A program made the translations under genes and the position numbers. From Shinella yambaruensis (GTDB taxonomy: Bacteria; Pseudomonadota; Alphaproteobacteria; Rhizobiales; Rhizobiaceae): a DNA stretch of 64,000 nt. The stretch covers positions 310,001 through 374,000 of the forward strand of contig NZ_JALJCK010000004.1 in NCBI RefSeq assembly GCF_022899355.1, read 5' to 3'. The notes below the pieces were generated by a model that saw only the letters and a program-made list of their open reading frames with translations, made no database searches and was not told the DNA's origin. Shown here piece after piece: positions 54,594 to 62,094 of the stretch (the stretch's first letter is position 1; every line of letters begins with the position of its first letter).

Positions 54594-54917
54594 TTAACCC
54601 TGCCGCTCCGGCAGATCTACGAGCAGCCCGTCGAGGGCGTCGGTCACCTTGATCTGGCAGGAGAGGCGCGAGCGTGCCGGGTCGGGATCGTGGGCAAAGT
54701 CGAGCATGTCCTGTTCCAGCGCCGAGATCGGCGGCAGCCGGTCCACCCATTCGGGCGCGACATAGACATGGCAGGTGGAACAGGAACAGGCCCCGCCGCA
54801 TTCGGCGAGGATACCGCGCACGTCATCGTCGCGCGCGGCCTCCATCAGCGTCATGCCGGCGGAGGCTTCCACGACATGCCGGCTTCCGTCGTGCTGCACG
54901 AAGGTGATCTGAACCAT
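54594..54917 (-). CDS. [2Fe-2S] ferredoxin (adrenodoxin/putidaredoxin type)
   Basis: The 107-residue protein has the C-X5-C-X2-C ... C cluster pattern (C40, C46, C49, C87, plus an extra C44) and the [15 protein letters not shown] motif of vertebrate-type ferredoxins that serve P450s or Rieske oxygenases. It lies 19 bp after the RidA-like gene and is probably the last gene of the long catabolic operon. A matching ferredoxin reductase is encoded at 63336. Confidence 0.93.
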
Positions 54918-54936
54918 CGCCGTCTTTCCTTGTCGT

Positions 54937-55317
54937 CTATGGCAGGAGGGCCGTCGCCTCGACCTCGACCAGGAATTCCGGCCGGGTGAAGCCGGAGACG
55001 ATCATCAGGGTCGAGGCGGGCTTGACCGGAAGGTCGGCGACGAGGCGGTCGCGCACGGCCATGTATTCGGCCATGTGCGCGCGCGCCGTCACGAACGCGT
55101 TGAAGCGCAGGACATGGGAAAAGTCCGCCCCGGCCTCGGCAAGGATCGCGCGGATATTGGCAAAGCACAGTTCCGCCTGCGCGGTGACGCCCTCCGGGAC
55201 CGTGCCGTCGGCGGCAAGGCCGAGCTGGCCGGAGGTCACGACGAGCCTGCCTGAGGCGATGCCGTGGGAATAGCGGCCGAAGGGCGCGGGCAGGACGGCA
55301 GGTTGAAGCGCCTTCAT
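54937..55317 (-). CDS. RidA/YjgF-family protein without catalytic arginine
   Basis: The 126-residue YjgF-family protein has [21 protein letters not shown], and the [10 protein letters not shown] end. The position of the catalytic arginine is serine (S102 in KPASTLM), so it is unlikely to be a classical enamine deaminase. The start overlaps the TetR stop (ATGA), so it is coupled to the regulator. Relatives in pyrimidine and aromatic pathways act on pathway intermediates, which fits the neighbours. Confidence 0.85.
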
Positions 55318-55946
55318 GGTGTTTCGACCTTCTTGCCGGAAAGCCCGCAGCGATACAGGAAGAGCCGGGTCGCTTCGGCGATGATGCGCTCGGCGTCGAG
55401 TGGCTCGTTCTCGGGCTTGTCCATCAGCACGCGGGCCTGCGCCTCGTATTCGGCATAGTGCTGGGTCACGGCCCAGATGTTCATCTGGAAGAGCAGCGGA
55501 TCGACCGGGGCGATCTTGCCGCTGTCGACCCATTGCCGGATGACGGCGTTCGCCTCCTCGACCGCGGCCTTGAGCGCGGCCCAGTGCGGCGCCATTTCCG
55601 GTGCCCCGCGGGCGATCTCGTTCGCGAAGAAACGCGAGAGGTCGGGGAATTCCAGCGTATGGCGCACCTTGCGCTCGATATACTGGGTGATCGCCAGCGC
55701 CGGGTCGTCGCGCGAGGCGGAGAGGAAGAAGATGTCCTTGTACTCTCCGACGATATCGCTGAGCACCTGCTGGTACAGTTCCTCCTTGGAGGAGATGTAA
55801 TAGTGCAGCTGGGCCTTGGTGATGCCGGCCGTCTGCGCGATCGCCTGGGTGGAGGTCCCCGACAAACCGTTGCGCGCGAATTCCTGGATGGCGGCGCTGC
55901 GGATCGCGGCGTGGATTTCCTTCCGCTTTTTCTGAAGAGTGCTCAT
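55314..55946 (-). CDS. TetR-family regulator, RutR-like
   Basis: The 210-residue protein has an N-terminal helix-turn-helix (GTSTQAIAQTAGITKAQLHYYISSKEELY) and a C-terminal domain like RutR, the uracil/thymine-responsive regulator. It lies inside the catabolic operon between the binding-protein gene and the RidA gene. It is a likely local regulator that responds to the pathway compound, but the ligand is unknown. Confidence 0.88.
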   Translation of the reverse strand: MSTLQKKRKEIHAAIRSAAIQEFARNGLSGTSTQAIAQTAGITKAQLHYYISSKEELYQQVLSDIVGEYKDIFFLSASRDDPALAITQYIERKVRHTLEFPDLSRFFANEIARGAPEMAPHWAALKAAVEEANAVIRQWVDSGKIAPVDPLLFQMNIWAVTQHYAEYEAQARVLMDKPENEPLDAERIIAEATRLFLYRCGLSGKKVETP

Positions 55947-56015
55947 GGGCGTTCCATGCGGGTGGCGATACGGTGGAAGCGGGCCGGCGCCGGAGCGCCG
56001 GCCTGCGGCTCGGTC

Positions 56016-59636: not shown

Positions 59637-60487
59637 GTCTCGCGCTTGATTTCGCTTTCGTGCCAATGGCCGAGCACGAGGTTCGACAGCCAGGACGTGA
59701 CGAGGAAGATCCCGACGCCCAGCACCGAGACGAGGAACAGCGCGGCGAACATGCGCGGGATCTCGTTGCGGAAGCTCGATTCGAGGATGCGCGAGGCAAG
59801 GCCGGTGTTCTGCCCCGCCGTGCCCGCGACGAACTCGGCGACGACGGCGCCGATCAGCGACAGGCCGCCGGCGATCTTCAGCGCCGCCATGAAATAGGGC
59901 AGCGCCGAAGGGATCAGGAGGTGGCGCAGGCGCTGCCAGGGCGTCGCCTGGTAGAGCCGGAACATGTCGCGCAGGTTATGGTCGGCGCTGCGCAGGCCGA
60001 TCGCCGTGTTCGACAGGATCGGGAAGAAGGCGACGATCCAGGCGCAGATGAGCAGCGCGAAGAAAGTGTTGCTGACATAGATGAGGATCAGCGGCGCAAT
60101 GGCGATGATCGGCGTCACCTGCAATATGACGGCGAAGGGGAAGAGACACATCTCCACCGTGCGCGACAGGGCGAAGAGCATGCCGAGCAGCACGCCGCCG
60201 ACGATGGCGAGGCTGAGCGAGAGCAGCGTCAGCTTGACCGTGAACGCCGCGCTCTGCATCAGCGACGACCAGTCCTGCACCAGCGTTTTCGCGATCAGGC
60301 TCGGCGCGGGGATCAGGTAATGCGGCACCTCGTTGTACCGGACGAGGAATTCCCACAGGCCCAGCACCGCGAGGATCGAGACGATGGGCATGATGACGCG
60401 CAGGCGCCGTTCCCGCTGCTCCAGGAGGATGCGCGGATCGACGATTTCGCCTTCGGCAACGGCCGGATCAATGGTTGAGATCGACAT
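59633..60487 (-). CDS. ABC transporter permease (SsuC/TauC type)
   Basis: The 284-residue protein has six predicted helices and the BPD_transp_1 segment (FRLYQATPWQRLRHLLIPSALPYFMAALKIAGG) that contacts the ATPase. It pairs with the ATPase gene upstream, which overlaps it by 20 bases. Confidence 0.93.
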   Translation of the reverse strand: MSISTIDPAVAEGEIVDPRILLEQRERRLRVIMPIVSILAVLGLWEFLVRYNEVPHYLIPAPSLIAKTLVQDWSSLMQSAAFTVKLTLLSLSLAIVGGVLLGMLFALSRTVEMCLFPFAVILQVTPIIAIAPLILIYVSNTFFALLICAWIVAFFPILSNTAIGLRSADHNLRDMFRLYQATPWQRLRHLLIPSALPYFMAALKIAGGLSLIGAVVAEFVAGTAGQNTGLASRILESSFRNEIPRMFAALFLVSVLGVGIFLVTSWLSNLVLGHWHESEIKRET

Positions 60488-61292
60488 GGTCCATGGTCCC
60501 TTCGAGCGCGTTGCTGACCAGACGGCAGTTCTCGGTATATTCGGGTGTCATGCGGTAGGCGCTCGTGCGCGTATCGGCGCCGGGCAGCGCGATGTCGTGC
60601 ACCACGCGGCCGGGACGCGCGGCCATGACCACGACGCGGCTGGAGAGATAGACGGACTCGAAGACCGAGTGCGTGACGAAGATCACCGTCAGCCCGTGCG
60701 AGCGCCAGAGGCCCAGCACCTCGTCGTTGAGCTTGGAGCGCGTCATCTCGTCGAGCGCCGCGAAGGGCTCGTCCATCAAAAGCAGCTTCGGCTTCGTCAC
60801 CATGGCGCGGGCGATGGAGACGCGCATCTTCATGCCGCCCGAGAGCTCGCGCGGATAGGAACGGGCGAAATTGGCGAGGCCCACCATGGAAAGGGCCTCT
60901 TCCACGCGGGCCTTCGCCTCGCCCTTGCCGAGCCCCTGCAATTTCAGCGGAAGGAAGACGTTGTCGAAGACGCTCGCCCAGGGCATCAGCGTCGCTTCCT
61001 GGAAGACATAGCCGATATCGCTGCCATGGGGGCTTTCGCCGGCCGGATGGCCGTTGACGGTGATCGAGCCCGACGAGAAGGACAGGAGGCCCGAGATCAT
61101 CTTCAGCGCCGTGCTCTTGCCGCAGCCGGAGGGGCCGAGGAACGAGACGAACTCGCCGTTGCGGATCTGTAGCGACATGCCGCGCAGCGCCACGGTGCCG
61201 TTGGCGAAGCGCTTGGAGACGTCCTTCATGTCGATGAGGACGGGGGCGTCGGTCAGGCCGGCGGCGTTGGAGAGGGGGCTTGCCGCGTTCAT
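60468..61292 (-). CDS. ABC transporter ATP-binding protein
   Basis: The 274-residue ATPase has a Walker A motif at residues 53-61 (GPSGCGKST), signature LSGGMKMR, Walker B LLLMDEPFAALDE and the H-loop VTHSVFES. It powers the SsuB/TauB-type importer. The start is one base after the creatininase-family stop region (61294), so all are cotranscribed. Confidence 0.95.
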   Translation of the reverse strand: MNAASPLSNAAGLTDAPVLIDMKDVSKRFANGTVALRGMSLQIRNGEFVSFLGPSGCGKSTALKMISGLLSFSSGSITVNGHPAGESPHGSDIGYVFQEATLMPWASVFDNVFLPLKLQGLGKGEAKARVEEALSMVGLANFARSYPRELSGGMKMRVSIARAMVTKPKLLLMDEPFAALDEMTRSKLNDEVLGLWRSHGLTVIFVTHSVFESVYLSSRVVVMAARPGRVVHDIALPGADTRTSAYRMTPEYTENCRLVSNALEGTMDHVDLNH

Positions 61293-61293
61293 C

Positions 61294-62094
61294 CTACCAC
61301 TCCGGTTTTCTGTCCAGCCAGTCGGCCGGCAGGCTGTCGATGTCCGCCATCGCCTCGACGAGGCGCGCGACGGCGTGGTCGAGGGTCGCCTCGCCCTTTG
61401 CGGCGGTGGCGAGGTGGGCCTCGCCGCAGGCCCCGGCGGTGCTGAAATCCTGCGTCTTCCAGCCCGGCTTCGCGCCGCGGCCGAGGCCGAGATGGCGGAA
61501 ATTCTCGAAGAGGTCCTGGCCGCGCGAGCGGAAGTCGCGGGCGGCTGCCATGTCCACGTTCTCGGGGGCGAGCGCCAGCATGACCGAGGTCTCCATGTCG
61601 CCGGCATGGATGCCGTGGGTGCGCTCGACATCGGAATAGATGCCCTCCGGCATGCCGAAGCCGAACCAGTTGACCGAGAAGGCCAGCATGTCGTGCGCGA
61701 TGCGCAGCTGGCGGGTCACGACGTCCATGACCGGGATGTTGCCGCCATGGCCGTTGAGGAGGACGAACTTGCGCACGCCCGAGCGCGCCACGCTGGCGCC
61801 GATCTCGGTGAGTACGCGGATCAGCGTTTCGGCCGAAAGGGTGAGCGTGCCGGGATAGTCGATGTGCTCGTCGCTCTTGCAGACGGCCTGGGTAGGCAGG
61901 AACAGCACCGGGCTGTCCTCCGGCAAGGCTCTTGCGAGGCGGCGTGCCACCCCGTCGACGGTACAGCTGTCGACGGACATGGGCAGGTGCGGCCCGTGCT
62001 GCTCGATGGCGCCGATGGGCAGGACGGCGATGAGGCGCCCACGGTCGAGCGCGGCGAAATCGCGGCTGGAATAGTCGGCCCAGAAGCGCTTCAT
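61294..62094 (-). CDS. Creatininase-family amidohydrolase (MftE/ArfB-like)
   Basis: The 266-residue protein has the family motifs GAIEQHGPHLP (E31, H33, H36), D42, NGHGGN and HAGDMETS. True creatininase reads NGHYEN; NGHGGN instead matches members such as ArfB and MftE, which hydrolyse other amides. Its substrate is a C-N bond in an unknown compound. It is the first gene of the leftward operon, facing an AT-rich promoter region. Confidence 0.88.
   Translation of the reverse strand: MKRFWADYSSRDFAALDRGRLIAVLPIGAIEQHGPHLPMSVDSCTVDGVARRLARALPEDSPVLFLPTQAVCKSDEHIDYPGTLTLSAETLIRVLTEIGASVARSGVRKFVLLNGHGGNIPVMDVVTRQLRIAHDMLAFSVNWFGFGMPEGIYSDVERTHGIHAGDMETSVMLALAPENVDMAAARDFRSRGQDLFENFRHLGLGRGAKPGWKTQDFSTAGACGEAHLATAAKGEATLDHAVARLVEAMADIDSLPADWLDRKPEW

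Follow-up and report, generated by a model that had tools for sequence, protein, structure and literature searches.

A conserved eleven-gene catabolic unit of Shinella yambaruensis related to the gene clusters of the 6v42-type flavoproteins

What compound is degraded by the tightly packed catabolic genes near one end of a 64,000-nucleotide stretch of Shinella yambaruensis DNA (contig NZ_JALJCK010000004.1, positions 310,001 to 374,000; here called the window), and how is their flavoprotein supplied with electrons? A first-pass annotation, made from the sequence alone, had described nine same-strand genes joined by short gaps or overlaps, had read them as an operon that imports and catabolizes a nitrogen heterocycle or cyclic amide, and could match them to no pathway. 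All nine open reading frames (ORFs) lie where it had placed them, running from 62094 to 54594 on the minus strand, and each has a family match. The extent was drawn too narrowly, however: a 2-hydroxyacid dehydrogenase gene and a ferredoxin reductase gene, both left out, diverge from the first of the nine across 169 bases, so that the unit comprises eleven genes. By sequence comparison, it appears to be conserved, catabolic and broadly similar in kind to the clusters around relatives of the PDB 6v42 flavoprotein, in a distinct clade and with its own regulator. We consider the chances about even that the compound it imports and degrades is a fused pyrimidine, for which a pterin or another folate-derived pteridine is the likeliest candidate.

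Gene content and conservation

In order, the nine minus-strand genes encode a creatininase-family hydrolase, the ATPase and permease of an ATP-binding cassette (ABC) importer, a cytosine-deaminase-like amidohydrolase, an FAD_binding_4 flavoprotein, an NMT1 solute-binding protein, a RutR-like TetR regulator, a RidA-family protein and a [2Fe-2S] ferredoxin. This set is conserved well beyond the window. Within the window's genus, the flavoprotein was found in 4 of 21 genomes, and these four, the window's own included, have all eleven genes; loci L042, L146 and L147 carry them at 84 to 98% protein identity to the window. The 2-hydroxyacid dehydrogenase accompanies the operon in the same three loci and in L036. 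The L042 plasmid (NZ_CP084754.1) is labeled Roseateles sp. XES5, a betaproteobacterium marked "unverified"; the label looks wrong, and the match shares its coordinates with a genome (G498) placed in the window's own genus.

In a family-level sample, a flavoprotein match at E ≤ 1e-60 was present in 77 of 199 genomes, mostly at 38 to 48% identity. On plasmids of Leisingera, Mameliella, Pseudosulfitobacter, Salipiger and Nitratireductor, the core genes keep the order seen in the window, with no ferredoxin gene found in the Pseudosulfitobacter and Salipiger clusters and no ridA in the Nitratireductor cluster. The gene set further occurs in many Rhizobium, Mesorhizobium, Hoeflea and roseobacter records, and the core is kept together across many alphaproteobacterial genera as well as on Pantoea and Klebsiella plasmids. 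The neighborhood comparison that the annotation had called for thus found wide co-occurrence instead of genes rarely seen together, and conservation of the core across genera supports its proposal of a nitrogen-heterocycle catabolic operon with a dedicated importer.

We also surveyed 289 genomes across the class, a sample not picked by synteny. The flavoprotein (E ≤ 1e-60) was present in 14 of them, all of which have a creatininase relative (E ≤ 1e-30), compared with 47 of 289 overall (Fisher's test, P = 1.4e-12; P = 8.9e-12 minus the window's genome). The two genes lie no more than 10.5 kb apart in 10 of the 14 genomes and on separate contigs in the other 4. The association between flavoprotein and creatininase is more than chance. 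Among 70 loci chosen by the flavoprotein gene, some of them at contig ends (15 of the window type, clade A, and 55 of the 6v42 type, clade B), the amidohydrolase and flavoprotein were present in 70, the ATPase and permease in 67 each, the solute-binding protein in 66, the creatininase in 65 and RidA in 58. ORF clusters antisense to real genes were set aside from this count as artifacts. Simple ORF pickers miss genes, including the whole cluster in L100, so tblastn was used to judge gene presence in the clade A loci and in the survey of electron-supply genes.

The genes are closely spaced, the longest overlap being 20 nt and the widest gap 69 nt. A single nucleotide separates the creatininase gene from the ATPase gene (60468 to 61292; ABC_tran PF00005, 126 bits), which overlaps the permease gene (59633 to 60487; BPD_transp_1 PF00528, 86 bits) by 20 nt. 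The amidohydrolase gene follows after 5 nt, or with an overlap if its GTG start is used, and shares a 4-nt ATGA overlap with the flavoprotein gene. Gaps of 22 and 69 nt then flank the gene for the NMT1/THI5-type solute-binding protein (56016 to 57026; NMT1 PF09084, 68 bits), a protein 40 to 50% identical to 15 aligned clade B proteins. Beyond the TetR gene, another 4-nt ATGA overlap leads into ridA (54937 to 55317; Ribonuc_L-PSP PF01042, 88 bits), encoding a proposed enamine/imine deaminase, and 19 nt separate ridA from the ferredoxin gene. On the plus strand, the 2-hydroxyacid dehydrogenase gene (62264 to 63274) has as its best NCBIfam match glyoxylate reductase, at 275 bits of the 455 needed. 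Promoter and terminator scans found little, and a GC-rich hairpin between the solute-binding protein gene and tetR was discarded, as it folds barely better than its own shuffles (z = -0.66).

The 6v42 homology, the hydrolases and the likely substrate

The VAO-fold flavoprotein (57049 to 58416, 455 amino acids [aa]; FAD_binding_4, 96 bits) is a proposed flavin oxygenase. Its sole strong phmmer match in the PDB is 6v42/6v43 (E = 4e-118 over residues 3 to 448), the next being at E = 1e-14. With an AlphaFold model built from 20 sequences (mean pLDDT, 76.7), the top Foldseek hit was again 6v42_A (44% identity, E = 4.8e-42, TM-score 0.88), and the other 49 folds listed had TM-scores of 0.71 or less. 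The entry is titled "Crystal structure of the flavin oxygenase with cofactor bound involved in folate catabolism." The operon thus has a relative with a name, and the homology makes a pterin or fused-pyrimidine substrate a more specific reading than the generic lactam of the annotation, of which the heterocycle part is retained.

The gene clusters around 6v42 relatives point in the same direction. A contig scan with the 6v42 sequence returned 54 loci. The best match, at 89%, came from Hoeflea, and the scan did not recover the locus from which 6v42 itself derives. The Hoeflea loci nearest to it carry crea, ridA and a run of genes for solute-binding protein, ATPase, permease, amidohydrolase, FAD protein and oxidoreductase, and most 6v42-type loci arrange the same core differently and have one or two genes for flavodoxin-fold NAD(P)H oxidoreductases after the flavoprotein gene. 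The window-type and 6v42-type clusters therefore share the creatininase, RidA, NMT1-type importer, amidohydrolase and flavoprotein, the last similar over nearly its full length. They differ in regulation and redox partners: a TetR gene is present in 15 of 15 clade A loci by tblastn (14 by ORF clustering) and in 0 of 55 clade B loci, whereas the flavodoxin-fold oxidoreductase is present in 4 of 15 and 54 of 55, respectively; 12 of the 15 clade A loci have a relative of the ferredoxin reductase (38 to 100% identity).

A flavoprotein tree of 82 rows (81 of 89 loci plus 6v42; eight rows, L078 included, were dropped as short or near copies) placed the window in a 16-row clade with support of 100 and 6v42 among Hoeflea-type rows with support of 99, so that the two do not group as orthologs of one clade. 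The tree was made quickly, its branches are long and its root, set at the midpoint, is weak, so its deep joins are unsure. Several clades at 36 to 48% identity make up the family, with varying side genes. Three tandem flavoprotein paralogues, 39 to 43% identical to the window's protein, occur within a single cluster at G326:C15:200833-204916 (in L110), and pairs occur in tandem in G429, about 5 kb apart in G387 and about 9 kb apart in G444.

The two metal hydrolases appear to belong to familiar superfamilies without sharing their known substrates. The creatininase-family protein (61294 to 62094, 266 aa; Creatininase PF02633, 247 bits), a proposed ring-opening amidohydrolase, scores 104.6 bits against the creatininase equivalog TIGR04448 (cutoff, 235). 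It retains the aligned E, H, D and H of 1q3k but has G118 and F144 at the aligned E and W, which we take to be E122 and W154 of creatininase, with the residue roles that we assume for that enzyme. The amidohydrolase (58413 to 59627, 404 aa; Amidohydro_3, 98 bits), a proposed 2-amino deaminase of a pterin-type ring, has as its best NCBIfam match PRK07583, "cytosine deaminase," at 337 bits (cutoff, 403). Compared with the Escherichia coli enzyme, it keeps the metal-site residues and the catalytic E and H (H62, H64, H210, D310, E213 and H242) and changes Q156 to P157, D314 to N311 and W319 to F316; the roles of these positions are those we presume for E. coli cytosine deaminase, with Q156 presumably binding cytosine. 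Both proteins miss their equivalog cutoffs, and we take them to be probable hydrolases of these superfamilies acting on other substrates.

Were the substrate a pteridine, the pathway might run as follows. The NMT1-type ABC importer would take in the compound, and the cytosine-deaminase-like amidohydrolase would strip its exocyclic amino group. The flavoprotein, its flavin reduced from NAD(P)H through the divergent ferredoxin reductase and then the [2Fe-2S] ferredoxin, would oxygenate the ring with O2, and the creatininase-family hydrolase could open the activated lactam. RidA would hydrolyze the freed enamine or imine, and the 2-hydroxyacid dehydrogenase may reduce a small oxoacid product. Both the individual steps and their order are proposals, and the annotation had rightly kept the members seen in the sequence apart from the pathway they might share.

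A pteridine remains our best guess, held with about even confidence, and several points weigh against it. The eleven genes include none for folate cleavage or for aminobenzoate. The folate link of 6v42 is its PDB title, for which literature searches found no paper, and the window clade is separate from the 6v42 clade on the tree, so the substrate may differ. An enzyme family that has diversified could act in the window's clade on a smaller ring, with the same pathway architecture serving a simple pyrimidine, a creatinine-like imidazolinone, an s-triazine or another ureide-yielding heterocycle. We regard this as rather unlikely, though the clade structure and differing side genes of the family speak for it, as does the resemblance of the regulator to the uracil sensor RutR. 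So do genes beside some relatives: the Rhizobium etli cluster is adjoined by a biuret amidohydrolase (426 bits; cutoff, 370) and an allophanate hydrolase (765 bits; cutoff, 511), and L111 has an AtzE-family amidohydrolase and HpxZ. A ureidoglycolate-lyase-like gene and a hydantoinase-like fusion, both below their cutoffs, lie in L109. Such side genes hint at ureide products and also fit the degradation of a pteridine, while in Rhizobium johnstonii 3841 the cluster neighbor is a molybdenum aldehyde oxidoreductase set; coming from single or few genomes, these neighbors are hints only. Against a different substrate stand the folate title of the closest solved relative and the core of R. johnstonii 3841, around which an incomplete gene table annotates no biuret gene in 25 kb. 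The loss of Q156 from the amidohydrolase and the missed creatininase cutoff likewise weigh against this alternative. L109 itself (G040:C8:157000-176000) is a divergent cluster, with a flavoprotein of 37% identity, a Rieske-type gene, a ferredoxin and its reductase, and a D-amino-acid-dehydrogenase-like gene; its fusion protein, hydantoinase/caprolactamase-like, is 1,123 aa long.

Our literature searches returned no paper on this pathway, on 6v42 or on this gene set, and in the literature searched the bacterial breakdown of the pterin ring is poorly documented, with no ring-opening pathway found; for Variovorax, a carboxypeptidase G and a pterin deaminase have been described (PMC9513972). Together with its relatives, the operon offers a conserved, testable gene set that could be read out through its regulator, its operator-like site and its importer.

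Electron supply to the flavoprotein

The ferredoxin encoded at the end of the operon (54594 to 54917; Fer2, 51.5 bits) is of the ferredoxin VI/putidaredoxin type, its best phmmer match being ferredoxin VI, 1e9m (E = 5.4e-44), with putidaredoxins at about 1e-24. The divergent ferredoxin reductase (63336 to 64000, plus strand, continuing past the window end to 64538, L004:11336-12538; Pyr_redox_2 and Reductase_C) is a candidate reductase for this otherwise unexplained protein. Across 89 flavoprotein loci, a flavodoxin-fold oxidoreductase alone is present in 66, a ferredoxin reductase in 13 (with a ferredoxin also in 10 and a flavodoxin-fold oxidoreductase also in 2), a PDR/VanB-type reductase in 3 and no recognized electron-supply gene in 7. 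In L108, a PDR-type gene (40% identity) lies between the solute-binding protein gene and tetR, the position taken by the oxidoreductase in L036; in L119, only the C-terminal Fer2 domain of the PDR/VanB-annotated gene passed Pfam. On the tree, the three electron-supply labels require six changes, a count that omits the rows labeled "none" (six) and "both" (two).

These data suggest, in our reading, that one flavoenzyme may be served by exchangeable reductases across lineages, as would suit an oxygenase that draws its electrons from NAD(P)H; these would then flow toward the flavin. VAO-fold enzymes are ordinarily reduced by their own substrate. An electron-supply gene that varies by lineage would explain the ferredoxin and suggests a VAO-fold oxygenase reduced from outside, which, if true, would be unusual. 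Tentatively, and with less confidence than we place in the pteridine substrate, we propose that the flavoprotein is an externally reduced oxygenase whose redox partner (a flavodoxin-fold NAD(P)H reductase, a ferredoxin reductase with a putidaredoxin-type ferredoxin, or a PDR/VanB-type reductase) has been exchanged repeatedly, and that it forms the core of a widespread, undescribed route of pterin-ring opening. Further observations speak against our main reading of the operon. Seven of the 89 loci (L038, L105, L111, L113, L115, L121 and L078) have no recognized electron-supply gene, although in L078 and L111 a contig end or the limit of the stretch taken truncates the locus; no ferredoxin was found near the ferredoxin reductase in L097, L101 and L104; some ferredoxin-reductase matches are only 38 to 41% identical; and the Rieske-type gene in L109 is a possible client of the ferredoxin. 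Genes resembling 2-oxoglutarate/Fe(II) oxygenases also lie beside the cluster in L111, L115, L120 and L121, the first, second and fourth of which are among the seven.

The flavoprotein could instead be a dehydrogenase that passes its electrons on to the ferredoxin or a flavodoxin-fold acceptor, with no oxygenase involved. This would alter one step and is compatible with either view of the substrate. After 6v42, the best-matching folds are those of VAO-fold D-lactate dehydrogenases, LctD works in complex with EtfAB (title of 7qh2), and RidA would suit imine release after amine oxidation. However, the partners found in relatives include PDR/VanB-annotated genes and the Pyr_redox_2 plus Reductase_C protein, types that usually supply an oxygenase with electrons from NAD(P)H, and 6v42 is titled an oxygenase; we consider a dehydrogenase improbable. 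More doubtful still is that the ferredoxin and its reductase merely share the locus and act for a Rieske oxygenase or P450 whose gene lies in another place: L109 has a ferredoxin, a ferredoxin reductase and a Rieske-type gene (a weak NCBIfam match, 55 bits) by its cluster, L114, a flavodoxin-fold oxidoreductase locus, has another Rieske-type gene at 93 bits, and the ferredoxin type would fit, but the L109 protein had no match at E ≤ 1e-15 in the window's genome (with no positive control, and with P450s not searched) and tblastn with it found none near the other 12 ferredoxin-reductase loci, this probe being insensitive because it also missed the gene in L114.

Regulator, upstream site and comparison with known pathways

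The operon encodes a TetR-family regulator (55314 to 55946; TetR_C_3, 109 bits; TetR_N, 43 bits) whose best PDB match is RutR, 3loc (E = 3.2e-30). A closer RutR relative lies elsewhere in the genome (L129; 56% identity to E. coli RutR over 161 aa). RutR contacts uracil through Q171, W167, W77, Y97 and Q179' (PMC10891134); the window protein has Q162, W158, Y69, Y89 and Q170 at these positions, four of five being identical and W77 being replaced by Y69. As a control, we compared 21 TetR_C_3 genes of relatives, the window's included. Y97, W167 and Q171 are retained in all 21, position 179 is unaligned in L140 and L141, and position 77 carries W in 17 of the genes and Y in the other four, which are the TetR genes of this operon in the window's genus. 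The pocket is common to the whole sample, which weakens it as proof of a uracil-like ligand; it fits a uracil-edged ligand without proving one and, as a point against our main reading, does not mark out the proposed ligand.

Upstream of the creatininase gene, CAAATAGTTTGACC..TTGCTATGA is conserved amid diverging surroundings, and the proposed RutR-type operator, TAGTTTGACCATTTGCTATGA (62183 to 62203, minus strand), forms an island in diverged DNA. It occurs once in the genome at up to three mismatches and is identical in L146 and L147. In five loci (L040, L099, L101, L102 and L103) the site reads TTTGACCGATCGGTCAGA, which contains a perfect 14-base palindrome, and the octamer GGTCAAAC is found on either strand in 14 of 16 upstream regions. 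L116, the sole clade A row without a nearby TetR gene, also lacks the site. Against the RutR consensus, in letters that we presume correct, the window site scores 10 of 14, a score also reached by 265 of 3,200 letter-shuffled upstream regions; a score of at least 11 is reached by 8 of 16 upstream regions and 41 of 3,200 shuffles. A RutR-type site by score alone was rejected, and since shuffled regions match the window's score, conservation makes the case for an operator. The best-scoring stretch differs from the conserved site in L037 and L116, but L037 nonetheless has the conserved site. The RutR site is a palindrome of about 16 bp (PMC10891134). Taken together, the RutR-like regulator is paired with a conserved site that resembles an operator, lies upstream of the creatininase gene and is putatively bound by it; a repressor sitting at 62183 to 62203 would come off when it meets a ligand that presents a uracil-like edge.

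Known pathways resemble the unit in part. Like the Rut pathway, it has a RutR-like regulator with a RutR-type site and a RidA-family protein, as RutC is. Unlike that pathway, it has no RutA-type oxygenase among the family matches of the nine genes, for which the name was rejected, and its proteins fall short of the RutR (144.9 bits; cutoff, 368) and RutC (25 bits; cutoff, 169) equivalogs. Creatinine degradation, cytosine deamination, glycolate oxidation, mycofactocin and SsuA-type sulfonate import were also dismissed, as every equivalog or subfamily cutoff was missed, including those of the glycolate oxidase GlcD (70.5 bits; cutoff, 567.9) and the mycofactocin protein MftE (118.9 bits; cutoff, 172). 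Creatininase, MftE, cytosine deaminase and GlcD belong to the same superfamilies, and the two hydrolases mostly keep their metal-site residues, but all four equivalog cutoffs are missed and the presumed substrate-specific residues are changed in both hydrolases. In the catabolism of lumichrome and riboflavin by the lum genes of Nocardioides, an oxygenase and serial hydrolases likewise dismantle a fused pyrimidine ring (PMC12746152); that system belongs to another lineage and another gene set, and the main text of its report mentions neither a creatininase nor an ABC transporter (PMC12746152). Past the ferredoxin reductase gene (L004:12679-18471) lies an ORF resembling a nucleoside hydrolase, followed by an apparent ABC importer of the glycine-betaine type and an apparent TetR regulator, as judged by eye from the translations.

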